A stretch of DNA of 36,221 nucleotides from a virus. The DNA lies in IMG/VR virus record IMGVR_UViG_3300031612_000025, positions 1-36,221 of that record; one strand, 5' to 3'. Position numbers and translations under genes: made by a program. This document shows, piece after piece, positions 1 to 13,727 of the stretch (the stretch's first letter is position 1; every line of letters begins with the position of its first letter). The notes under the pieces are model-generated. The model saw only the letters and a list, made by a program, of their open reading frames with translations, made no database searches and was not told where the DNA came from.

Positions 1-108
1 GTTGACTCATTGAAAGTTGGCGGCGTTGCTGCTTTAATGTGTATAGGAAAAGCTTTCGCTGCATCTAAGGTAGGAGATCCTGAGTCTGCGTCTATTGGTA
101 AGGGTTAA
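1..108 (+). CDS. C-terminal end of an unknown protein (5' truncated)
   Basis: An open frame enters from the left edge and ends at TAA 106-108, giving 35 residues (ending GDPESASIGKG). The stretch VGGVAALMCIGKAFA is alanine- and glycine-rich and mildly hydrophobic. It could be a helix of a virion or membrane protein, but nothing identifies the family. It is followed after 21 bases by the next rightward gene, so it is probably the preceding gene of the same late operon. No function is assigned. Confidence 0.55.
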   Translation, partial: VDSLKVGGVAALMCIGKAFAASKVGDPESASIGKG

Positions 109-129
109 CCCCTAGCGGGATGGGATCTT

Positions 130-999
130 ATGAGTTATCGGCAGTCGGGAATTGCTTATAGAGAATCAGACTTTGTTTACAATAGGTCTGATGCGACCCT
201 ACACGTAGGTGTTATTAACGTAGTTTGTGGTACTCCTACGCTGTTCGAGTTCCCTTACCGTAAGTCTGGGACAGCATACCGGAACAGTTTCCTGTACCGT
301 GAGCCAGCTTCAAACAATAATACTTATGTAGTTAAAGCTTTCCCAGCTACGTTGGCTGTGACTACAGCGTTCTCTGCTGTGGCAGGCAAACCTATAGATG
401 TGGCTGCCGCTACGATCAATGTCGTTGCGGGTGTAGCTACAAACATTAACGTTGACGCTAACTTCATTGTCCTTCTTGAGGGCAACAATTATTCTGTGGT
501 TATGGACGCACCGAGTCTTGTGGTGGGCAACGTTCTGAACATGGCGACTATTCCTGTCACTACAGCGATGGACTCCACACAAGAAGTCATTATCGATGTG
601 GATACTATAGCGGCTACGGTTGCTGTGCCTACCCCTGCTGACATCAGCGGAGATTTCAGTATCACTACTGGAACAATAAAAGTGGTGGCTACTACCCCGG
701 ATGTGCTGCTGCATCGTATCTTGACTGTCCCTGAGAGTAATACTTTACCTCCGGTGCTGCGTCCTCAAGACGCTACTAAAGCTGCGTTCGCTTTACGTCA
801 ACACTACAAGCCTACAGCTAGAGGCATTAACCTAGTGATTGTGAACAACGCTTCAGTGCAAACGTTTATGCCATCAGATTTCTCTTCGGTAACACGAGTC
901 ATTTATGGTGGTCACGCGAGTCCCAACGATTTGACAGGGACAGAGCAAGCCATACTTATAGCCGCCGGTTATCAGTTTAGAGTAGGGGAGCCAGTCTAA
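130..999 (+). CDS. Probable virion structural protein with duplicated YRxSGxAYR motif
   Basis: 289 residues. The N-terminus carries two copies of a short Tyr/Arg/Ser motif, YRQSGIAYRES near residues 3-13 and YRKSGTAYRNS near 43-53. The middle (about 65-200) is rich in Val, Thr, Ala and Ile, as in beta-sandwich virion proteins. The C-terminal part (about 200-289) is a separate mixed region. I do not recognise a named family. The gene opens the tail-side rightward run, and its TAA overlaps the ATG of the next gene by one base (TAATG). Tail, neck or head-decoration protein are all possible; the structural role is inferred from composition and neighbours. Confidence 0.6.
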   Translation: MSYRQSGIAYRESDFVYNRSDATLHVGVINVVCGTPTLFEFPYRKSGTAYRNSFLYREPASNNNTYVVKAFPATLAVTTAFSAVAGKPIDVAAATINVVAGVATNINVDANFIVLLEGNNYSVVMDAPSLVVGNVLNMATIPVTTAMDSTQEVIIDVDTIAATVAVPTPADISGDFSITTGTIKVVATTPDVLLHRILTVPESNTLPPVLRPQDATKAAFALRQHYKPTARGINLVIVNNASVQTFMPSDFSSVTRVIYGGHASPNDLTGTEQAILIAAGYQFRVGEPV

Positions 1000-1382
1000 T
1001 GCCAATGTATTCATACAGGTGCGGTCATTGCCACACAATCTGGGACGTGATCCATAAGATGAAAGAGTCTTACGACGAGAGTTGTGAGAACTGTGGCGGG
1101 GAGCTAAACAAATACTATGGGAACGTTCAGATAGCCCCGTCGGTTATGCCTAGCAGATCCAACATTGATTTGGCTAAGACCAAAGCTAATGACGCTGCTA
1201 AAGATGTTGACATGGCAGCTTACAAACGGTTAAGGAAAGACGGGTTACAGCCTCCTAGCATTAACGGTTCAGCGAAACTGGAGGCCCGTGCCGGTACTAA
1301 GTGGGAAGTTAACGCAGGACATACTCTATCTCATGAAACTCGTAAGCAAGGGGAGAAAAGTCTACAGGAGCATTTAGGATGA
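999..1382 (+). CDS. FmdB-type zinc-ribbon protein
   Basis: 127 residues. The N-terminus matches the FmdB/CxxC regulatory family: MPMYSYRC-GHC, then W, then CENCGG. The four zinc ligands are Cys8, Cys11, Cys29 and Cys32. The rest is hydrophilic and charged with no further domain seen. Small FmdB ribbons are common in actinobacteriophage virion operons, but their function is unproven; DNA or protein binding through the zinc ribbon is the usual guess. The gene is coupled by one-base overlap to the gene before it and by an ATGA overlap to the head-tail adaptor-like gene after it, so it is co-translated with tail genes. Confidence 0.8.
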   Translation: MPMYSYRCGHCHTIWDVIHKMKESYDESCENCGGELNKYYGNVQIAPSVMPSRSNIDLAKTKANDAAKDVDMAAYKRLRKDGLQPPSINGSAKLEARAGTKWEVNAGHTLSHETRKQGEKSLQEHLG

Positions 1383-2320
1383 CTACCGCCCAGGTGTGGA
1401 TTGATTCCACTAGAGACATGTTGTTGTCTAGTTATGTGGAGGAGTTAGATGTTCTGACTGCTGCTATAACTGACACGACTGTTCAAACGTTGCAGATCCA
1501 AGGAACGTCTAGCAGCATAGCTAAGGGTGTGGTGTTCGAGGTTGGCACGGAAATGTTTTATTGCACTTCTGTAGCTGGTAACACAATCAACGTGTTCAGA
1601 GCGTATGCAGGTTCAACTGCTACCACTCACGCTATCGGGGATTTCCTTAGGGTCTCTCCGAAGTTCCCGACCTACCGTATCATCAACAGTATCAACGACG
1701 ATCTGTCAGATTTGAGTTCACCAGATAACGGTTTGTTCCAAATGAAAACTACGAGCTTCACCTACAATGGTGGGGTCGATGGATACAATTTAGCTGGATT
1801 AACTTCTGCCGAAATTAACTCTATCTACTTGGTCACTTACGCTGATGTAGGTTCCGAAGCTACAGAACCTCAAGTCCTTTCCTGGACGTTGCGTCGTAAC
1901 CGTGACACCACAGCGTTCTCTAGTGGTTTAGCTTTGATACTTTACACTGGGGTCTGGCCGGGTCAGAAAGTTACGGTCATGTACAAGTCGCCGTTGACTC
2001 CTATCGTGAATGGCAGCACACTACTTTCTTCTGTAGGTTTAGACACTACAGCTTACGATCTACCGTCGTTGGGTGCAGGTATGGCTCTGATGACTACTAC
2101 ACCTATACGTCGCGAGTTCTTGGACGCTGAGGGAACTTCTCGTTTGGCTGAGGAAGTACCTGCTGGTGCTATCTCTGCGTCGTTCCGTGATCTGATGGGT
2201 CGCCGTCGGGCTAGGGTGCAAGCAGAGTCGGCTCGTCTGATCTCTCGTTACCCACAAATTTGGAGCCGTAATGCTGCTGTAAGACCTACATCACAATGGA
2301 GCGGATACTCCGATGCCTAA
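1379..2320 (+). CDS. Head-tail adaptor/connector-like virion protein
   Basis: 313 residues. Residues about 40-110 hold a pattern typical of phage neck adaptors: a small beta domain (VFEVGTEMFYCTSV...NVFRAYAGSTATTHAIGDFLRV) followed by an amphipathic helix (YRIINSINDDLSDL). The V-x-R-x-x-x-GT-A-x-x-H-x-x-G type motif is what I rely on. The centre is beta-rich and the C-terminus is a basic helix (DLMGRRRARVQAESARLI). It starts on the ATGA overlap with the FmdB gene and ends 8 bases inside the next gene. Assignment to the head-tail joining complex is inference from this motif and position. Confidence 0.55.
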   Translation: MTTAQVWIDSTRDMLLSSYVEELDVLTAAITDTTVQTLQIQGTSSSIAKGVVFEVGTEMFYCTSVAGNTINVFRAYAGSTATTHAIGDFLRVSPKFPTYRIINSINDDLSDLSSPDNGLFQMKTTSFTYNGGVDGYNLAGLTSAEINSIYLVTYADVGSEATEPQVLSWTLRRNRDTTAFSSGLALILYTGVWPGQKVTVMYKSPLTPIVNGSTLLSSVGLDTTAYDLPSLGAGMALMTTTPIRREFLDAEGTSRLAEEVPAGAISASFRDLMGRRRARVQAESARLISRYPQIWSRNAAVRPTSQWSGYSDA

Positions 2321-4184
2321 CTCTCAAAGTCTGCCAGTCAACCTAAATGGGATATCTTACCTAGTTGACACTAGGCAGTACTCACGGACGACTGTGCCAG
2401 CTTTGCGTGAACAGCGCGATAACAGTGCTGAGCCTGGCGAGAACGCTTTGGACACGTCGGGTGCTTGGACACGTTCCCAAACAGATTGGTCTTATGGTGC
2501 TGGGCAAAATAGTTTTGACATTAGCGACAGCGACCGTCGTAGGTTTAACACTTCTTCTGGTATTGATATTTGGACGAAAGGGCAGATCACGCTTCTGCCC
2601 ATTACCGAAGAGAAACTGAACGCTGTTGAAACGAATTTAGATATCCAACGTATGGGTGTGTACGTGTACGCTGCTCATGGCGCTAACGCAGTCTTCTCTA
2701 CAGACCTTGTGCCTGCTGCACCGACGTGGACTCCGTTTGTTCCTCGCTCAGGTAAAGACGTTAAGGACATGACTTCCGATGGTGCGAACGCTTACTTCGC
2801 TTTTGGTTCTGCTGATACTATAGCTAAAGCTACGTTAGGTACAGCAGCTATTGACGGTAGCTGGCCTACTTCTGGTACCCAATCGGCAGACGTGTTGCAG
2901 GTAGCTGCGGGTCGTCTTATTGGTGCGTTAGGTGCAAACATTTTTGAGTTGGATGCTAACGGTGTGAAGCTTGGCAGTTCTTTGGATTACACTGCGCCGT
3001 TGGCTGCGACTACGTGGGTTTCTGTTAGCGGTGGCCCGTCGGGGATCTTCGCTGCGGCGAACACAGATAACACCGGGTCGGTATATCATATCAATGTGTC
3101 AGCTACTGACGGCACTTTGCAAACACCTATAGTTGGTGGGCAGTTACCTCACGGTGAGGAGATCAATAAGATCCTTGCGTACGGTGAGATACTATTGATA
3201 GCTACTACCGCCGGGTTACGTACTGCTCTTATCGACACACAATCTAACGCTGTGACTATCGGTCCAGTGATTGAAGAGGGTGGGGCTGCGTATGCGTTGG
3301 AGATTGATTCTAAGTTCGTGTGGTGGGGTGGAAGCGACGGCAAGATTTACAGAGCTAACCTTGCTGTGTTTACTTCTACGTTAGTTCCTGCTTGGGCACC
3401 AGATCTGGTGTCTACAGCGGGTTCAGGTAACGTTACTTCGGTTGCGCGTTTCTTAGGTAAAACATATTTCGGTGCTGTTGGTGATGGGGTTTATGGTGAG
3501 TCCGGCACTAACATAAAAGTTGCTACTGGGATACTCAACACTGGTGAAGTGTCGTGGTCAACTGTTGCCCCTAAACTTTTGCGTTCGGTGACAGTACGCC
3601 AAGACAGATCTCAATATACTTTCGGTGACACGGAATACAATCAGGCGTCAACGACATATCAGGACGCTGCTTTACAGTACCGTGGTAACCCTACTTCTGT
3701 GATGCCTGGTTCAGTGTTCTTCTCAGCGACGAACGATAATAACGTCCTCGATGAGGTAGGACCTCTACTCACTCAAGACCCTTTGCCTTTCAACTTCGTC
3801 ACACAATCCTCTGTGTCCTACAAATTCGTGCTAACAATCAACCGGGATGCTGTAGATACAACAGTAGCTCCGATCATTCAGGACTGGTTGACAAGCTGTA
3901 TCGTCACCCCCAGCCGAGTGGACGAGATCATTGCACCAATCATTATGCAACGCCAAGTCTTAACGTCCCGTAACGCTGGAGCCCCAGCAACGTTTGACTC
4001 TGCCACGATCTTCACGTCTCTTAGGAACGTTATGGAGACTGGCATCACAGTAGATTACATTGAAGGAACACGAGCCGAGAAAGTCACCATAGAGAGAATT
4101 TCAATGCAACCTAACCGTCTATCCGACAACGGAGACTGGTGGGAAGGTACCCTCATAGTGAGGTTGCTAACTGTACCAAAATAA
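2313..4184 (+). CDS. Large propeller-like tail protein (possible tail nozzle or baseplate protein)
   Basis: 623 residues, low in Cys and rich in Thr, Ser, Ala and Gly. From about residue 110 to 420 there are recurrent blade-like segments such as VYVYAAHGANAVFST, GANAYFAFGSADTIAKAT, ILLIATTAGLRTALI and SKFVWWGGSDGKIYRANL, the pattern of a beta-propeller. The C-terminal 200 residues are beta-rich (ISMQPNRLSDNGDWWEGTL near the end). In podoviruses the tail nozzle is a large propeller protein, so nozzle is an attractive guess; a siphovirus-type baseplate protein is the alternative. It follows the adaptor-like gene with an 8-base overlap and is followed after 9 bases by an exonuclease gene. Confidence 0.6.
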   Translation: MPNSQSLPVNLNGISYLVDTRQYSRTTVPALREQRDNSAEPGENALDTSGAWTRSQTDWSYGAGQNSFDISDSDRRRFNTSSGIDIWTKGQITLLPITEEKLNAVETNLDIQRMGVYVYAAHGANAVFSTDLVPAAPTWTPFVPRSGKDVKDMTSDGANAYFAFGSADTIAKATLGTAAIDGSWPTSGTQSADVLQVAAGRLIGALGANIFELDANGVKLGSSLDYTAPLAATTWVSVSGGPSGIFAAANTDNTGSVYHINVSATDGTLQTPIVGGQLPHGEEINKILAYGEILLIATTAGLRTALIDTQSNAVTIGPVIEEGGAAYALEIDSKFVWWGGSDGKIYRANLAVFTSTLVPAWAPDLVSTAGSGNVTSVARFLGKTYFGAVGDGVYGESGTNIKVATGILNTGEVSWSTVAPKLLRSVTVRQDRSQYTFGDTEYNQASTTYQDAALQYRGNPTSVMPGSVFFSATNDNNVLDEVGPLLTQDPLPFNFVTQSSVSYKFVLTINRDAVDTTVAPIIQDWLTSCIVTPSRVDEIIAPIIMQRQVLTSRNAGAPATFDSATIFTSLRNVMETGITVDYIEGTRAEKVTIERISMQPNRLSDNGDWWEGTLIVRLLTVPK

Positions 4185-4193
4185 GGGAGCTTC

Positions 4194-4949
4194 ATGGCTA
4201 AGGTATTATTCTACGATATAGAAACTGCGCCTAACCTCGCATATGTGTGGGGCCAGTACGAGCAGAACGTTGTGCAGCAGTATCGCGAGTGGTACCTAAT
4301 GTGCTTTGCTTACCGTTGGGAGCATCAAAAGAAAACTAAAGTAATTTCTTTAACGGACTTTGAACTGTACAACGAAGACCCAGAAAATGACAGAGAAGTA
4401 GCTCAAGCTTTATGGGATCTGTTTGATGAGGCAGACATTGTAGTAGCGCATAACGGTGACCGGTTCGACATGCGTAAAGCTAACGCACGGTTTATTGTTC
4501 ATGGCTTGTCAGCACCTAGCCCAGTGCAACAGATAGATACTCTTAAAGTAGCTCGTAGGTACTTTATGTTTAACAGCAACAAACTTGGCGACCTTGGTCA
4601 ACACCTTAAGCTCGGTAAGAAAGAATCTACTGGCGGCTTCGAGCTATGGGTAGGTTGCATGAAGGGCGAAGTTCAAGCTTGGAAACGTATGATCAAGTAC
4701 GCACGTCAGGACGTAAACCTTCTGATGGATGTTTACTATAAGCTCCGTCCGTTCATGACTACTCATCCTAACAAAAACATTATTGATGACACTTCAAGGA
4801 ATTGCCCTACTTGTTCAGGGACTAAGTTGATGAGGCGTGGATATAAACGTAACCGCACTACTTCATACGTCGCTTTGCAGTGTATGCAATGTGGTTCTTA
4901 TTGTCGCGAGAGATTAAAGTCTAATGAAGTTAGTCCGGGAGTAGCGTAA
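4194..4949 (+). CDS. DnaQ/YprB-like DEDDy 3'-5' exonuclease with C-terminal zinc ribbon
   Basis: 251 residues. Exo I is FYDIET (Asp8, Glu10), Exo II is AHNGDRFD (His86, Asn87, Asp92) and Exo III is YARQD (Tyr169, Asp173), so it is a DEDDy RNase H-fold exonuclease like those of proofreading domains and the YprB group. Residues 204-237 form a zinc ribbon (CPTC and CMQC, Cys204, 207, 230, 233). No polymerase domain follows, so it is a stand-alone nuclease. GGGAG lies 5 bases before the ATG. It sits at the end of a virion operon, away from the leftward recombination genes. A role in DNA processing, proofreading in trans or host DNA degradation is possible but not shown. Confidence 0.85.
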   Translation: MAKVLFYDIETAPNLAYVWGQYEQNVVQQYREWYLMCFAYRWEHQKKTKVISLTDFELYNEDPENDREVAQALWDLFDEADIVVAHNGDRFDMRKANARFIVHGLSAPSPVQQIDTLKVARRYFMFNSNKLGDLGQHLKLGKKESTGGFELWVGCMKGEVQAWKRMIKYARQDVNLLMDVYYKLRPFMTTHPNKNIIDDTSRNCPTCSGTKLMRRGYKRNRTTSYVALQCMQCGSYCRERLKSNEVSPGVA

Positions 4950-6019: not shown

Positions 6020-6345
6020 AACAACTCGTTCATAAGCTCAGCATATTTAGATAGAGGCATCACTACATAAGATTCGGAAACGTTTTTGCCTCGTCTCTTA
6101 ACGATAACAGACCACCAGCGAGCGCCAGCGTTCCGTGCTTCTTGCTCCCCTTCGGACATCCACCCACTGAAGTTTAACTGTTTATGATTCTTGCATTCTA
6201 AGACTGTGTTGGGCATCCCGATGAGATCCCCTTTGTCTAGGTTCCCTGCCAGAGCGCGTCGTTCTACCCAGAACTTGGTGTGCTCACTTAGGTACACCGC
6301 ACATTCCCTCTCAAACGTCGTTCCTTTAGCCTTGTTTATACTCAT
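6016..6345 (-). CDS. Holliday-junction-resolvase-like PD-(D/E)XK nuclease
   Basis: 109 residues from the chosen ATG. GTTFERECAVYL supplies the conserved Glu12, GNLDKGDLIG supplies Asp40 and VLECKNHK supplies Glu50 and Lys52, the order E...D...ExK of archaeal Hjc-type and phage resolvases. NFSGWMSEGEQEARNAGARWWSVIVKRRG follows as in many actinophage homologues. I chose the ATG at 6345 because it forms an ATGA overlap with the gene before it and has GGAGGGAAGAG just upstream; a GTG at 6360 lacks this. It likely resolves recombination intermediates made by the annealing protein encoded upstream. Confidence 0.75.
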   Translation of the reverse strand: MSINKAKGTTFERECAVYLSEHTKFWVERRALAGNLDKGDLIGMPNTVLECKNHKQLNFSGWMSEGEQEARNAGARWWSVIVKRRGKNVSESYVVMPLSKYAELMNELL

Positions 6346-6675: not shown

Positions 6676-6843
6676 CTATAGGTACTTGTCTTGCATCATT
6701 CTGATCCCGTTACGGATTACTTGGGCTTGAGGAATGCCGTTATCTTCGGCATGTTGCCTCACCCAAATAAGCTGTTCGGCGCTCAGGTTCAAGTTAAAAT
6801 GTTCTGATAGTCGTTCACCGACTCGTCCTTTTGGCATTCCCAT
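6676..6843 (-). CDS. Ribbon-helix-helix (Arc/MetJ/CopG-like) small protein
   Basis: 55 residues. The sequence reads MGMPKGRVGERLSEHFNLNL, then SAEQLIWVRQHAEDNGIPQ, then AQVIRNGIRMMQDKYL. A short beta strand (HFNLNLS) is followed by helix A, a turn at NGIPQ, and helix B with the typical AQVIRNGIR. This is the layout of dimeric RHH repressors. Its ATG overlaps the TAA of SSB (TAATG), which proves coupling by position; an ATG at 6837 is also possible. RHH proteins bind short dyads through the beta ribbon, so it is a candidate for the repeated dyads near 10.2 and 12.5 kb, though nothing shows this directly. Confidence 0.7.
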   Translation of the reverse strand: MGMPKGRVGERLSEHFNLNLSAEQLIWVRQHAEDNGIPQAQVIRNGIRMMQDKYL

Positions 6844-9690: not shown

Positions 9691-9817
9691 TGTCGTCCCT
9701 TCTTCGTGTGTACTCTTCGTCCGCTTTCATAGCTTCATAATCATCCCGGTCGAACTCCAACAAGTCTTCGTCGCAGTCCCACACATCGTCTGGCTCTAGC
9801 CACGCATCATAACTCAT
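9680..9817 (-). CDS. 45-residue highly acidic protein
   Basis: Reads MSYDAWLEPDDVWDCDEDLL, then EFDRDDYEAMKADEEYTRRRDDNEE. About 20 of 45 residues are Asp or Glu. It starts on an ATGA overlap with the WhiB stop and ends 11 bases inside the next gene, so the spacing strongly supports translation. No domain is recognised. Short acidic phage proteins often act as inhibitors or DNA mimics, but that is only a possibility here. Confidence 0.6.
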   Translation of the reverse strand: MSYDAWLEPDDVWDCDEDLLEFDRDDYEAMKADEEYTRRRDDNEE

Positions 9818-10083
9818 AGCCAGTAATCCAATGTCAGTTCCTTCTTGTTCTGATACTTAGGATTAGCAGAGATAATCACACGTCGCTTACGATGTGACAG
9901 CCCGCCCCACACGCCAAGCACACGATTCTCTACCGCATAGTCCAAGCATTCCGCAGTGATGGCGCATCTACCACACATACGTTCGATATACTTACGCTCT
10001 CCTGGCCCGTAATGCCCACGGGCAGGAAAGAACAATTCAGTGTCTTCATCTTTGCACTCAGCAAGATGCCAATTAGTTCCCAT
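9814..10083 (-). CDS. WhiB-like Fe-S transcription regulator
   Basis: 89 residues from ATG at 10083. NWHLAEC (Cys10), then MCGRCAITAEC (Cys37, Cys40, Cys46), then GVWGGLSHRKRRVI is a full WhiB signature: four cluster ligands, the GVWGG turn and the basic DNA-contact tail. I chose 10083 over an ATG at 10119 because GAGAGGGG lies 7 bases upstream, while 10119 has none. It is the first gene of the leftward operon and probably regulates early transcription with the host sigma factor. The second, more divergent WhiB is near the operon end. Confidence 0.92.
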   Translation of the reverse strand: MGTNWHLAECKDEDTELFFPARGHYGPGERKYIERMCGRCAITAECLDYAVENRVLGVWGGLSHRKRRVIISANPKYQNKKELTLDYWL

Positions 10084-10109
10084 AAGGGTACCCCTCTCTT
10101 TCACACTAG

Positions 10110-10138
10110 AACATACCATTAACCAGTAGGTTCAGCAA
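10110..10138 (-). promoter_or_regulatory. Probable leftward promoter for the whiB operon
   Basis: On the minus strand TTGCTG (10138-10133) and TATGTT (10115-10110) are separated by exactly 17 bases, followed by the ribosome site and ATG at 10083. The -35 box is weak and lies inside a repeated element, which suggests control by a bound protein. Confidence 0.45.
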
Positions 10139-10172: not shown

Positions 10173-10191
10173 TCACGACCGGGTGTCGTGA
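10173..10191 (-). terminator. Hairpin upstream of the whiB operon with leftward U-rich tail
   Basis: TCACGAC (10173-10179) pairs perfectly with GTCGTGA (10185-10191) around CGGGT. Read leftward it is followed by GGTTTTATTTTTT, so it could end leftward transcripts coming from the right before the whiB promoter. Confidence 0.5.
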
Positions 10192-10192
10192 T

Positions 10193-10231
10193 AGTGAACT
10201 CCGGGGGCGAGCCCCCCTTCGTTCACTTTTT
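10193..10231 (+). terminator. Strong hairpin with T-run
   Basis: AGTGAAC pairs with GTTCACT and, inside it, GGGGG pairs with CCCCC around CGAG. TTTTT follows at 10227-10231, so it works as a rightward intrinsic terminator. With the neighbouring hairpin it insulates the leftward early operon from the module to the right. Confidence 0.65.
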
Positions 10232-10232
10232 C

Positions 10233-10316
10233 GTTAGGCCAGCTTAACTCAAAGTGTAAGCTCCCTTAACACGACTTGTTAGGTAGGGTTAACACGATCT
10301 GTTAGGGTTGCTTAAC
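10233..10316. repeat. Left cluster of GTTAGG/CTTAAC dyad repeats (putative operators)
   Basis: GTTAGGCCAGCTTAAC (10233-10248) and GTTAGGGTTGCTTAAC (10301-10316) are 16-base imperfect palindromes: GTTAGG and the complement of CTTAAC differ at one base. Between them lie two 19-base direct repeats, CTTAACACGACTTGTTAGG (10265-10283) and GTTAACACGATCTGTTAGG (10288-10306), 23 bases apart. Matching dyads lie at 12489-12573. A dimeric repressor or replication initiator site is the likely meaning. Confidence 0.65.
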
Positions 10317-10532
10317 ATCTGATCCTGCATAATCATACATTGACCTCTGCATAAAACATTTTTTTGTGAGCTGTTCAGCTGGCGCGAGCTCTCATTGATC
10401 TTCACCACTTTAAGCGTTTAGAGGTTTTGCACTGGTTCCCGGTATTAAAAGGAATGGGACGCGTGACTTTTACCGTGGCTAGATATGTGGCAGAATTAGA
10501 GAGCGACATTCAACTACCAGAAAGAATCAACA
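10317..10532. other. Non-coding leader between repeats and acidic coiled-coil gene
   Basis: About 216 bases without a convincing gene. It contains two CTGCATAA copies (10325-10332 and 10347-10354), a run of seven T at 10361-10367, and the inverted arms GAGCT/AGCT around 10368-10391. CATCTGAT plus CTGCATAA also occurs at 12459-12484. A rightward promoter for the gene at 10533 should lie here but no clear -35/-10 pair is seen. A short open frame (10454-10594) overlaps the next gene and was not called. Confidence 0.4.
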
Positions 10533-10949
10533 ATGCAAACTTACACGAACATAGAAATAGACGACGACGAGATCTGGGAGGCGGTAAGCGTTAACGTTAA
10601 CGACTCAATTAGTGAGCAAGTGCCGGAACACTTGACCGAGATCGAGAACCGGGCAGAATGGCTAGAGGAGAAATATTCGGAACTTAACTATCGGACCGAT
10701 GAACTCGAAGACCACGAAACGGAGGACCACGAAATCCGGATAACCGATTCTGAGTCTCAGATCGAGGAGCTTAGCGAGAAAGTCGAGGAACTAACCATGA
10801 CTTTACAACCTTGGGAAATAATCGAGGAGCTTAACCAGAAAGTTGAGGAGCTATCAGAGCAACTGCAACGAATAAAGCAGCTAATCCCCCGCGACATAAT
10901 TGAGACCATTCTTCGGGATCTATTGGCCGAAGCAAGAATCACATTATGA
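10533..10949 (+). CDS. Acidic coiled-coil early protein
   Basis: 138 residues, with a Glu/Asp share above one quarter. After an N-terminal segment (MQTYTNIEIDDDEIWEAV) the protein is nearly continuous helix with heptad-like Leu/Val/Ile, including a duplicated block EELSEKVEEL and EELNQKVEELSEQL (about 88-112). The C-terminus (DIIETILRDLLAEARITL) is amphipathic. The start IEIDDDEIWE resembles small proteins of aquatic phages, but no function is known. Its stop overlaps a microprotein start by 4 bases (ATGA). It heads the rightward accessory module. Confidence 0.7.
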   Translation: MQTYTNIEIDDDEIWEAVSVNVNDSISEQVPEHLTEIENRAEWLEEKYSELNYRTDELEDHETEDHEIRITDSESQIEELSEKVEELTMTLQPWEIIEELNQKVEELSEQLQRIKQLIPRDIIETILRDLLAEARITL

Positions 10950-11062
10950 GCGGGTGCGAAGACTTCGCGGCTTACTCGTGCTCAGTTGATAGCCCGATAG
11001 CTACTGAGTGGGCGGTTGGAATAGTGGCACTAGCTATTTGCCTAGTGTGGGTTCTGTCATGA
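10946..11062 (+). CDS. 38-residue single-pass membrane microprotein
   Basis: Reads MSGCEDFAAYSCSVDSPIAT, then EWAVGIVALAICLVWVLS. The N-terminal half has two Cys; the C-terminal half is one transmembrane helix. The start is on an ATGA overlap with the coiled-coil gene and its own TGA overlaps the next ATG by 4 bases, so both ends are coupled. No family is recognised. Superinfection exclusion, holin-like or membrane-signalling roles are possible, none shown. Confidence 0.6.
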   Translation: MSGCEDFAAYSCSVDSPIATEWAVGIVALAICLVWVLS

Positions 11063-11214
11063 TTCTAATGGCTTTAATTATTGCCGGGTTTTGCGGAGCC
11101 ATTCACTTCGACGACTATCGCGATAAGCGACACGCTGAGAAGTGGCAACGTTTACTAGATACAGAACACAACGGAAATCTAAACCCTTACGACTATGAAC
11201 TGGAGAGTAACTAG
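11059..11214 (+). CDS. 51-residue membrane-anchored microprotein
   Basis: Starts at ATG 11059 on the ATGA overlap. An N-terminal hydrophobic helix (MILMALIIAGFCGAIHF) is followed by a charged tail (DDYRDKRHAEKWQRLLDTEH...YDYELESN). A GTG at 11008 would extend it but overlaps the neighbour by 55 bases. It pairs with the microprotein just before it: two adjacent single-helix membrane proteins with coupled starts. Function unknown. Confidence 0.6.
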   Translation: MILMALIIAGFCGAIHFDDYRDKRHAEKWQRLLDTEHNGNLNPYDYELESN

Positions 11215-11616
11215 ATGGCAATAATGACAGATCAGGAGATGAACCGAGCGGACCTTATCGCTACTCATGAAATGCTTAAACGGTGGGAGGACTTGCCGAC
11301 TTACAGTGAAGAGGAGGACGACGAGAACACACTCCAACATCAGATAGAGAACGTATTGGAGATTAAGATATTCGCGGAGCTATCGTTAGTTAATGTTGAT
11401 AGCTGGATCATGAAAGGTGCCGAGCTTCTGACAACGTTCGGCGGTCCTACTATCCGTGTCGAGGTTCCGTTCTTTTTCGACTACATAGAGATAAGCGTTG
11501 CGTCGTGGGGATCTCGCGCAGTCGATACTTTTCCGGGACTCGACAATCTCAAGCACTACCTCATCGAGCTAGCTGACAACTGGCACACTGACGAAATCGA
11601 GGGACCACTCCATTAA
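11215..11616 (+). CDS. Hypothetical early protein
   Basis: 133 residues. The N-terminal half is acidic and helical (HEMLKRWEDLPTYSEEEDDENTLQHQIENVLEIKIFAELSL); the second half is beta-rich (PTIRVEVPFFFDYIEISVASWGSRAVDTF). It starts directly after the TAG of the previous gene; an ATG at 11224 is an alternative. GGAG lies 9 bases upstream. No family is recognised. It ends the rightward module just before a terminator. Confidence 0.65.
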   Translation: MAIMTDQEMNRADLIATHEMLKRWEDLPTYSEEEDDENTLQHQIENVLEIKIFAELSLVNVDSWIMKGAELLTTFGGPTIRVEVPFFFDYIEISVASWGSRAVDTFPGLDNLKHYLIELADNWHTDEIEGPLH

Positions 11617-11647
11617 CCAACTAGATATAGATAACTAAGCAAGTGGA

Positions 11648-11682
11648 AGAGTCCCGGCCTAACGTCGGGACTCTCTCGTTTT
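11648..11682 (+). terminator. Intrinsic terminator of the rightward accessory module
   Basis: AGAGTCCCG (11648-11656) pairs perfectly with CGGGACTCT (11666-11674) around a 9-base loop, followed by CTCGTTTT. It lies 31 bases after the stop at 11616. Confidence 0.8.
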
Positions 11683-11696
11683 GCTCCGGCTGTATG

Positions 11697-11805
11697 GCAT
11701 CCTAAGCGAAACGCGTTTCCCTAGCTCGATCTAGCTCGACCAACAAAAGCACGCCGAGCCGGAAGAATTGAGCCGATACGCTCCGCTCCTAAAGCATCCT
11801 AAGCG
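11697..11805. repeat. 12-base direct repeat and palindrome in an intergenic stretch
   Basis: GCATCCTAAGCG occurs at 11697-11708 and again at 11794-11805. The first copy runs into a perfect 12-base palindrome GAAACGCGTTTC and is followed by TAGCTCGA twice; the second runs into AAGCGCTT. This 11683-11840 stretch between two terminators holds no gene that I can see. It could be a protein-binding region. Confidence 0.5.
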
Positions 11806-11840
11806 CTTTGCAAGACCCAACGGTATGAAGACACCACCCC

Positions 11841-11876
11841 AAAAATAGGAAAGGACCAGCCCCGGAGGACTGGCCC
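11841..11876 (-). terminator. Intrinsic terminator of the leftward pair 11895-12369
   Basis: On the minus strand GGGCCAGTCC pairs with the following GGGCTGGTCC around TCCG with mismatches, then TTTCCTATTTTTGG follows. It lies 19 bases after the stop of the leftward gene ending at 11895. Confidence 0.65.
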
Positions 11877-11894
11877 AATTTGAAACCTAATTAG

Positions 11895-12152
11895 CTAGGC
11901 AGGCAGAACACAAGCCTCGAACGACTTCGAGCCGTGACGATCCATGACGTTGTTAAGAGTTCTAATCTGCTCAAGGATCTCGTCGCGTTTCTTACCCTCA
12001 TTAATCACAGCATCCTCTAGAACCAGTAACCAGTCCCACACCTCACCCTCTAAAGCGAGTGGCCCATCTTCGATCTCTGCTTTTAGATAGTCAGCAATAC
12101 TCTCGAACTGGTTAATTCTCCAGTTGTAACTATTGGCTATGTGTTCGCTCAT
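11895..12152 (-). CDS. Hypothetical helical protein of the leftward pair
   Basis: 85 residues, mostly helical and acidic (IADYLKAEIEDGPLALEGEVWDWLLVLEDAV, then KKRDEILEQIRTLNNVMDRHG). GGAGAG lies 6 bases before the ATG, so the start is well supported. It overlaps the preceding leftward gene by 23 bases and ends before a terminator. No family is recognised. Confidence 0.6.
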   Translation of the reverse strand: MSEHIANSYNWRINQFESIADYLKAEIEDGPLALEGEVWDWLLVLEDAVINEGKKRDEILEQIRTLNNVMDRHGSKSFEACVLPA

Positions 12153-12369
12153 TGATCTCTCCGTCGCTAGTTGATAACCGAACCTTAGCAGTAACTAGCT
12201 CAGAACGCGAAACATTAAACAATGACGGACAAACACTAAGCAAGTCGAATAGCTCCTCACTAAGCAAGGGGAGCCCTAACCGGTCGCAAACAATCGCTCT
12301 AGAACTTTCGAATATGTCGGGTAGATAAGTCATGACAAGAACGGTAACGACACCACTACCCAAGAACAA
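12130..12369 (-). CDS. Hypothetical small protein of the leftward pair
   Basis: 79 residues from TTG at 12369, which has AAGG 7 bases upstream; an ATG at 12333 (MTYLPDIFESS) is possible but has no ribosome site. The longer form has a hydrophobic N-terminus (MFLGSGVVTVLVMTYLP). The body contains LGLPLLSEELFDLLSVCPSLF, a helical segment. A TAATAT box near 12390 on the minus strand could be the promoter. No family is recognised, and the gene is only moderately supported. Confidence 0.45.
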   Translation of the reverse strand: MFLGSGVVTVLVMTYLPDIFESSRAIVCDRLGLPLLSEELFDLLSVCPSLFNVSRSELVTAKVRLSTSDGEINERTHSQ

Positions 12370-12458
12370 TGGGCAACCTTACCCACCACATATTACTAGT
12401 CTCGTCTCTCCATGTTGGGTTCACTCTGTGTGGTTGTTCAGATCCGGTACCCGGTATG

Positions 12459-12573
12459 CATCTGATTGTATAAATACTGCATAAAGATGTTAGGTTTGCT
12501 TAACAGGGTACGGTAGGCTTGCTTAACAAAAGGCGTACGGCACCCCATACAACAAGTGTTAGGCAACCTTTAC
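12459..12573. repeat. Right cluster of GTTAGG/CTTAAC dyad repeats (putative operators)
   Basis: CATCTGAT (12459-12466) and CTGCATAA (12477-12484), both also present at 10316-10354, are followed by GTTAGGTTTGCTTAAC (12489-12504), GGTAGGCTTGCTTAAC (12512-12527) and a weaker copy GTTAGGCAACCTTTAC (12558-12573). These bracket the 10.5-12.4 kb module together with the left cluster. The spacing of the first two copies is 23 bases, the same as for the two 19-base repeats on the left. Confidence 0.65.
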
Positions 12574-12599
12574 AGAACCCGGTCATGTGCCTTGCCCCC

Positions 12600-13063
12600 G
12601 CCCCAATAGATAATGTCTATCGGTGGGTTGGCTACTTTGGTTCAGGTGTTTGTTGGTTGTTTGGGTTAGTGTACTGGTTGTGCGGATGGTTTGTTGGTGT
12701 TCGGGCGGATTGTTTTGGGAGGATGTTCACCGATTTGGTGAATGTTTGAGAGTGTTAGCCCCCCATGAGGGAGGTTCTAACGTTGGGTTGGTCCGATTGT
12801 GGAGCCATGCCGTCGTTGTTAGCCAACAAGGTATTAGTTTGTTGGAAGGCCGGGTTACAAGTACAGGTTCTTTCTTTGTGGCTGCCCAGGCTTCCCATTA
12901 CCAGCCGTCCGTACTTTTGGGGTATTTGTTTAACGCCTATGCAAGATATTGTTCGTAGGCGTTCGTTACTGATGCCCGTTTGACGGTCTACTCCCCCTAC
13001 CGTCGATAGGTTCGGGGGGCGGTTTCTCACCGTGCAACCCTAGTTTCCCTCGGGTCGGGGCCG
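12600..13063 (+). other. Structured GT-rich non-coding region upstream of late genes
   Basis: No convincing gene is seen on either strand. Perfect stems recur: ATAGA/TCTAT (12606-12620), TTCACC/GGTGAA (12726-12742), GTTAG/CTAAC enclosing C-run/GGGAGG (12754-12781), CCAACAA/TTGTTGG (12823-12845, competing with TTGTT/AACAA at 12816-12829), AACGCCTA/TAGGCGTT (12932-12963) and GACGGT/ACCGTC (12982-13004). The stretch 12615-12722 is almost all G and T. A phage non-coding RNA, a leader or a replication origin are the options; tRNA and tmRNA were looked for and not found. Confidence 0.45.
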
Positions 13064-13111
13064 ATCTTTCTCGGTGTCGTAAGTTGTTCTGTGCTTACTG
13101 TAGCAGATCTT

Positions 13112-13120
13112 TGCTATGCT
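13112..13120 (+). promoter_or_regulatory. Extended -10 promoter (TGC TATGCT) for a leaderless late gene
   Basis: TGCTATGCT ends 7 bases before ATG 13128, so the start point should fall at or next to the ATG. There is no ribosome site before this ATG. The same layout recurs at 13772-13780 and, leftward, at 13742-13734. Confidence 0.5.
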
Positions 13121-13127
13121 TGTGGGT

Positions 13128-13391
13128 ATGGCACCTTCTAATTCTTCGGCACCCAAAGAGAGTTCTCGTTATTATAACGATAATCCCGATGCGAAGAAAA
13201 AGAAGGATGCCTACAATACTGCGTTTAATAAGAAGCCTGGTCAGATGGCTAAGCGCCGTCAGTTAGCGAAAGGCCGTCGGGATCGGGGTATTATGGGTAA
13301 GGGCGGTAAGGACTTGTCTCATACTAAGGGTGGCGGTCTTGTTCGTGAGAAGGTTTCTGTGAACCGGGGCCGTAATAGAGGCAAAAAGTAG
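13128..13391 (+). CDS. Conserved small basic phage protein (GGKDLSH motif)
   Basis: 87 residues from ATG at 13128; an ATG at 13116 would lie inside the -10 box. SSRYYNDNPDAKKKKDAYN, then GQMAKRRQLAKGRRDRGIMGKGGKDLSHTKGG, then SVNRGRNRGKK follows a pattern I know from small basic proteins of marine and freshwater phages (YY-x-x-NP-x-AKxKK ... GKDxSH ... NRxRNR). Their function is unknown; a nucleic-acid-binding role in late development is plausible from the charge. It is the first rightward gene after the structured region and faces a leftward gene that begins directly after its stop. Confidence 0.7.
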   Translation: MAPSNSSAPKESSRYYNDNPDAKKKKDAYNTAFNKKPGQMAKRRQLAKGRRDRGIMGKGGKDLSHTKGGGLVREKVSVNRGRNRGKK

Positions 13392-13727
13392 TTAGCACCT
13401 CATGTTTCTTTTTAGGTCTTCCCATACTGACCATTGTTGTTCAGTCCAGGTGTGGTCGAGTGCGTTGTATAGTTGGGAGCATTCTACAGATACGGTTTCG
13501 GTTGTTCCGCTTATGAGGCTATAAGATCCGCCGGGGTGTCCACTGTTTTCAATAACGCCATTGCTGGGGGGTAAAAGTGGCGGTGTTGGATCTGATGAAG
13601 GCCACCACATTATCATTGCTGTTATTGCTCCTCCTACTGCTACAGCGACAGCAGTTAAAGCTTTAACGATTTTTTTGATAGCGTCAGCCCAAGCATCCGC
13701 TCGTTGTCCTACCTCTTCTGCTTGCAT
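13392..13727 (-). CDS. Lone leftward single-pass membrane protein
   Basis: 111 residues. Residues 20-42 (IVKALTAVAVAVGGAITAMIMWW) form one transmembrane helix after a charged N-terminus, followed by a Pro-rich linker (SSDPTPPLLPPSNG) and a C-terminal domain with two Cys (TVSVECSQLYNALDHTWTEQQW...NMRC). It is the only leftward gene in the late region, tail-to-tail with the preceding gene and divergent from the next. Holin-like, antiholin or superinfection-exclusion roles are possible. A TGATATTCT box ends 6 bases before its ATG, suggesting a leaderless transcript. Confidence 0.65.
   Translation of the reverse strand: MQAEEVGQRADAWADAIKKIVKALTAVAVAVGGAITAMIMWWPSSDPTPPLLPPSNGVIENSGHPGGSYSLISGTTETVSVECSQLYNALDHTWTEQQWSVWEDLKRNMRC

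Follow-up and report, generated by a model that had tools for sequence, protein, structure and literature searches.

The 36,221-bp viral contig IMGVR_UViG_3300031612_000025 of IMG/VR (this whole stretch is called the window hereafter) carries two arrays of 16-bp dyads with the consensus GTTARG-N4-CYTAAC that lie 2.26 kb apart and bracket a module of two convergent operons. The dyads are genuine, and we lean toward the view that both arrays are operators of one dimeric regulator that controls the module from its two ends. Judging from the sequence context in which the same dyad recurs among other phages, this regulator is probably distinct from LexA and encoded by the host.

An earlier note on this DNA, made from the letters alone, had listed five dyads, and each of them is indeed present, matching either all 12 fixed positions of the consensus (starts at 10233, 10301 and 12489) or 11 of them (12512 and 12558). 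A further good copy at 10278 (11/12) was absent from that list, and weak copies in register are found at 10255 (9/12) and 12535 (7/12). Four sites therefore form the array on each side, spaced by 22, 23 and 23 bp on the left and by 23, 23 and 23 bp on the right, which bears out the 23-base spacing that had been described for both sides, while the two 19-base repeats noticed between the left copies correspond to a 23-bp-periodic block around 10264-10307. The words reported as shared by the flanks were also located left and right: CATCTGAT at 10316-10323 and 12459-12466, and CTGCATAA at 10325-10332, 10347-10354 and 12477-12484. All six sites of the contig that match at least 11 of the 12 positions lie within the two arrays; 200 dinucleotide-shuffled versions of the window contained 0.40 such sites on average and never more than three. 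Two pairs at 22-24 bp spacing were observed versus none in each of these shuffles. The motif is thus far from the chance level across genes that the earlier note had named as fatal to its proposal. Allowing up to three mismatches abolishes the enrichment (42 matches versus 33 expected), so the signal is confined to strong, clustered sites.

At both ends of the module, the edge of the innermost dyad contributes the -35 box of a promoter-like site that points inward (Table 1). The two sites are alike (TAACATCT...TGCA...ATACA), and on the left a second, overlapping candidate starts from 10289. Promoter calls in the region exceed shuffles only about twofold, and therefore their placement, rather than their score, carries the argument. 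Each of the two convergent operons ends in its own terminator-like hairpin. The neighboring operon that begins with a WhiB-family gene has a leftward promoter-like site of its own, read by eye (10138-10110 on the minus strand, TTGCTG-17-TATGTT), which lies beyond a hairpin and is free of dyads; similar sequences stand at this position in the relatives L007, L088 and L103. Since this promoter is not covered by dyads, the module and not the replication operon is the likely target. The anatomy of the region, together with the recurrence of the dyad in intergenic control regions of actinophages, fits the earlier suggestion of one protein controlling the module from both ends, and DNA looping between the arrays, which had been offered alongside, may occur by analogy with phage lambda.

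Table 1. Features of the window around the two dyad arrays
Feature	Position	Strand	Description
Putative left operator array	10233..10316	.	dyads 10233-10248, 10255-10270 (weak), 10278-10293 and 10301-10316; period 22-23 bp
Putative right operator array	12489..12573	.	dyads 12489-12504, 12512-12527, 12535-12550 (degenerate) and 12558-12573; period 23 bp
Inward promoter-like site, left	10312..10341	+	-35 TTAACA (10312-10317, edge of innermost dyad), 18 bp, -10 TACATT
Inward promoter-like site, right	12465..12493	-	-35 CTAACA (edge of innermost dyad), 17 bp, -10 TACAAT
Rightward module operon	10533..11616	+	three proteins: coiled-coil (138 aa), membrane-like (68 aa or shorter) and one of 133 aa; none assigned to a family
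Leftward module operon	11895..12369	-	two proteins of 66-79 aa and 85 aa, neither assigned to a family; the first without recognised DNA-binding fold
Terminator-like hairpin after rightward operon	11648..11674	+	
Terminator-like hairpin after leftward operon	11853..11876	-	
Two hairpins between WhiB gene and left array	10178..10232	.	second followed by TTTTTCG, rightward terminator-like; alike in L103 and L007
WhiB-family protein	9814..10119	-	opens the leftward replication/recombination operon
Ribbon-helix-helix (RHH) protein	6676..6843	-	candidate binder, tested, unsupported

Whether relatives keep the motif at the corresponding positions, as the earlier note expected, has a divided answer. 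The syntenic early-region relative L103 carries the window's dyad four times to the right of its WhiB gene, in a place that corresponds to the left array. A right-side array, upstream of the late genes, is present in L104, L098 and L106. L007, the closest full-length relative (terminase 96%; DNA 87% identical over 1-4930 and 12610-13394), ceases to resemble the window between ca. 9.5 and 12.6 kb and displays a different dyad at the left-array position, in the form of four GTTAC-N6-GTAAC-like copies ca. 24 bp apart. Sites of the GTTACY-N4-RGTAAC type or SOS boxes occupy the array positions in some relatives: both positions hold SOS boxes (CGAACN4GTTCG) in L054 and L074, which are related through their terminase and have other genes in the module in between; in L047, L048, L049, L052 and L058 such boxes are present at one of the two positions, while L053 carries arrays of TGTGAC-N4-GTCACA instead. 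Exact SOS boxes number 23 in the upstream regions of 38 terminase relatives, and none lies in the late genes. No lexA gene was found in any of 14 records, so these boxes are most simply host LexA sites. Dyad pairs upstream of the terminase are likewise strongly enriched (69 versus 5.8 expected at 47 loci), though over half of the relatives lack paired dyads at these places and the arrays are therefore not universal in the group.

The same dyad is also found elsewhere among phages. When 2.9 million viral contigs were scanned for pairs of dyads separated by 4-12 bp, 13 stretches in 11 other contigs were recovered, in which the dyads are almost exclusively intergenic. The 128-kb phage G001, which encodes two WhiB genes, has 31 sites, 29 of them in a control region of small open reading frames (ORFs) and ten in tandem at exactly 23 bp. 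Intergenic clusters number nine in G001 and four in G010, and most phages have two to four sites per place. An SOS box lies within 30 bp of a dyad in 30 stretches, compared to none for a permuted dyad of equal composition; these stretches include many mutual close relatives and, together with the first set, amount to 33 distinct contexts. A TTGACA promoter directly follows some of the composite arrays, and WhiB is encoded by 17 of the 21 tested records with such a composite. The figure of 18 in 33 for SOS boxes near a dyad includes contigs that were selected for SOS boxes, so that the fair test is the first, tandem-dyad set: in contigs not selected in this way, eight of the 16 SOS boxes have a dyad no more than 250 bp away, versus ca. 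0.8 expected. DnaA boxes behave similarly in G010, with four of five near a dyad compared to 0.29 expected. The position of the dyad beside LexA and DnaA sites in many actinophages suggests that the phages monitor host state via the host's own regulators. Directly before the ten-site array, at 6500-6540 of L101 (ca. 40,850 of G001), there are two TTTGTGAAAACTTTCACAAA sites that match the consensus of the Rex redox repressor.

LexA itself was discarded as the binder of the dyad, given that canonical SOS boxes adjoin it in the same phages; with both side by side, the dyad is a second site and not that of the LexA that uses CGAAC boxes. The RHH protein, which the earlier note had proposed for a binding test together with both WhiB proteins, was rejected too, because its contact strand does not track the motif (FNLNLS in the window and FNLKIS in L103, both with the motif, versus FNLKLS in L007 without it) and because it is shared only with L103, most motif-bearing contigs having no homologue.

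In the mechanism that we propose, one dimeric regulator would recognise GTTARG-YNNR-CYTAAC, with dimers on neighbouring dyads at 23-bp spacing. The innermost site at each end would cover the -35 region of the promoter firing into the module, and occupancy would most likely repress both convergent operons together. The sequences themselves establish where the sites lie, their statistics, their recurrence and their co-localisation; the repression, the host origin of this regulator and the signal that it reads are our inference. The regulator would more likely be host- than phage-encoded because unrelated actinophages use the same site beside host LexA and DnaA boxes and because WhiB alone, among the regulatory genes, is shared with unrelated dyad-bearing phages. 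Since the same positions carry operators of other regulators in the closest relatives, one host signal appears to be swapped for another in the control of the module. Several points weigh against this reading. Its support for a host origin, which we still find more likely, is indirect, and a different dyad in the nearest relative L007 is not what a single host regulator predicts unless the phage switched regulators. The promoter-like sites of the region (eight versus 3.7 expected from shuffles) are near background as a group and each weak alone, and the overlap of dyad and -35 box is not clear in L103. Near the window's own dyads we found no SOS, CRP-like, GTTACY or DnaA boxes, and CGAACN4GTTCG is also absent upstream of its late genes.

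The strongest competitor, albeit an unlikely one, is lambda-like immunity, with a phage-encoded repressor on both arrays that perhaps loops over the 2.26 kb and with relatives that are heteroimmune. Two arrays of three to four 16-bp dyads with a 23-bp period and ca. 2.3 kb between them reproduce the OL/OR geometry, the dyad of L007 differs in sequence at the same place, and conservation with L007 extends over both flanks but not over what lies between the arrays. However, the module proteins match no helix-turn-helix (HTH) or repressor family in Pfam or PHROGs and have no recognisable DNA-binding domain, although small divergent repressors could escape such searches. The first leftward protein (66 aa; model with a mean predicted local distance difference test score, pLDDT, of 72) matches no repressor-like fold, the structure model of the 85-aa protein is of low confidence, and no relatives of the 133-aa protein were found. 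Homologues of the module proteins are absent from eight other dyad-bearing contigs, though several of the compared contigs are fragments and the absence of genes from them is therefore weak evidence. The tyrosine integrase family PF00589 was detected in none of 19 records (the window and 18 related or dyad-bearing ones; serine integrases were not searched for), and the dyad itself recurs in unrelated phages.

Less probable still is that the arrays act as a sponge that titrates a host regulator off the genes of the host, with any effects on the module being secondary. The ten tandem sites of G001 at exactly 23 bp are more than one promoter needs, and clustering is likewise seen for SOS, DnaA and other boxes of host type, but no more than six good sites are present in the window, where they lie on promoter-like sites that point inward, and two to four sites per place are the rule in most phages. 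We give slightly less credence to the iterons of a replication origin that the earlier note had considered. While the 22-23-bp direct repetition with A+T-rich words alongside would suit them, other phages have their sites in many separate intergenic regions (the nine and four clusters of G001 and G010), SOS boxes stand in place of the dyads in relatives, and the window has two arrays rather than a single cluster, with no initiator gene adjacent. The cumulative GC skew does have its minimum at ca. 10-12.5 kb as an origin would, but this is the point where gene direction diverges and therefore not independent evidence. Least plausible of all is binding of the dyads by a phage WhiB-family protein: the WhiB protein of Table 1 is the sole regulator of the window with homologues in G001, G002 and G010, all of which bear dyads, and its gene lies next to the left array both in the window and in L103, but WhiB occurs with and without the motif, being also encoded near SOS-type arrays without dyad in L054 and L074, and we know of no WhiB protein that binds palindromic arrays alone.

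The window encodes two WhiB-type proteins, which indicate an actinobacterial host; among control genomes, WhiB was found in Corynebacterium only. Its leftward replication and recombination operon specifies a helicase loader, RusA, SSB, an annealing protein and a Cas4-like exonuclease, while the late genes run rightward from ca. 13.1 kb. The relatives L007, L008 and L054 are contigs of 36.5-36.8 kb, close to the 36.2 kb of the window. Nucleotide searches of INPHARED with the region gave no match, a search of the same database with the terminase gave distant matches only and no cultivated relative, and no Rfam family was matched.

Further elements were noticed around the arrays. Paired stems with changed sequence lie beside the left array in the window (10178-10232), L007 (5920-6000) and L103 (11955-12030) and contain GGTGTCGT..GATAGTGAA; the second of these consecutive hairpins resembles a rightward terminator or the 3' end of a small RNA. 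Right of its dyad array, L007 has a near-perfect bacterial parS (ParB) site, TGTTTCACGTGGAACA, at 6141-6156, of which the window has none. A conserved site just downstream of the right array, ATGTGCCNNGGCACAT, is seen in L052 (8700-8730), in L104 to the right of its array and in degenerate form in the window (12584-12595), and is possibly a late-promoter or packaging element. The stretch 12610-13080 of the window, which begins right after the right array, is G/T-rich and 87% identical to L007, and many relatives are G/T-rich there as well. In L106 (2300-9500), a short TGTGGAAATTCCACA-like repeat ahead of many genes, with VEIPQ or VEFPR recurring at ORF starts, forms a second intergenic repeat system. 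L054 (975-1035) and L074 (708-768) carry AGACA-N4-TGTCT three times at 23-24 bp inside an HTH gene resembling a replication initiator, and these copies may represent either iterons of an origin or a repeat in the protein. Finally, L094, the single hit of a genome scan, is a contig of this phage group inside a metagenome-assembled genome labelled Gammaproteobacteria (PARV01000048.1), probably through a binning error.

More tentatively, actinophages without detected integrase may stack operators of host regulators (LexA, DnaA, CRP/Rex-like and at least one regulator of GTTAGG-N4-CCTAAC) and swap them between close relatives, so that expression of the module would track damage, replication and metabolic state of the host. 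Phage operators for host CtrA in Alphaproteobacteria and for LexA in a Bacillus phage are already known; here, one phage group has such sites at two fixed places with the type of regulator exchanged, and in other actinophages several types occur side by side. Provided that binding is confirmed, uncultured actinobacterial phages, which are abundant, would time their gene expression by the state of the host, and the recurring 16-bp dyad would indicate a further regulator of Actinobacteria.

In phage lambda, OL and OR are two arrays of tandem dyads with a period of ca. 23 bp that lie ca. 2.3 kb apart over promoters. The window resembles them in its tandem dyads at ca. 23 bp in two arrays and differs in having no detected repressor gene between these, inward promoters and no tyrosine integrase. 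The stoperators of mycobacteriophages (PMC9283540) are likewise one short site repeated in actinophage genomes, but they are asymmetric, scattered through the genome and bound by a monomeric phage repressor, whereas the sites of the window are palindromic and form intergenic arrays at two places only. Among known bacterial operators, that of CsnR (PMC3048496), GTTAGG-N7-CCTAAC, shares the half-site GTTAGG with the dyad and not its N4 spacing, so that this ROK-type site does not match in full. The 19-bp DtxR box (PMC1382209), TTAGGTTAGSCTAACCTAA, shares the half-site TTAGG, and some DtxR sites contain TTAGG-N4-CCTAA, but the dyad has an invariant outer G and a free centre; the full iron box of DtxR/IdeR is missing from a logo built from 72 sites, and the dyad may be a single-dimer site of a DtxR-family protein. 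Temperate phage GIL01 carries SOS boxes at its promoters and uses the LexA of its host (PMC4551915, PMC6182141), and the relatives L054, L074 and L049 appear to use their SOS arrays in the same way; the window differs from it in having no SOS box and the dyad as a separate site, and these contigs in having no tyrosine integrase. Comparable as well are the clusters of CtrA sites (TTAA-N7-TTAA) in alphaproteobacterial phages, where binding of CtrA was shown experimentally and linked to "lytic deferment" (PMC9437464). The dyad shares with them the dense sites confined to intergenic regions, the fast turnover among relatives and an independent origin in several lineages, while the host phylum and the site are different, the binder is putative, two arrays bracket a module and several types of sites are mixed.

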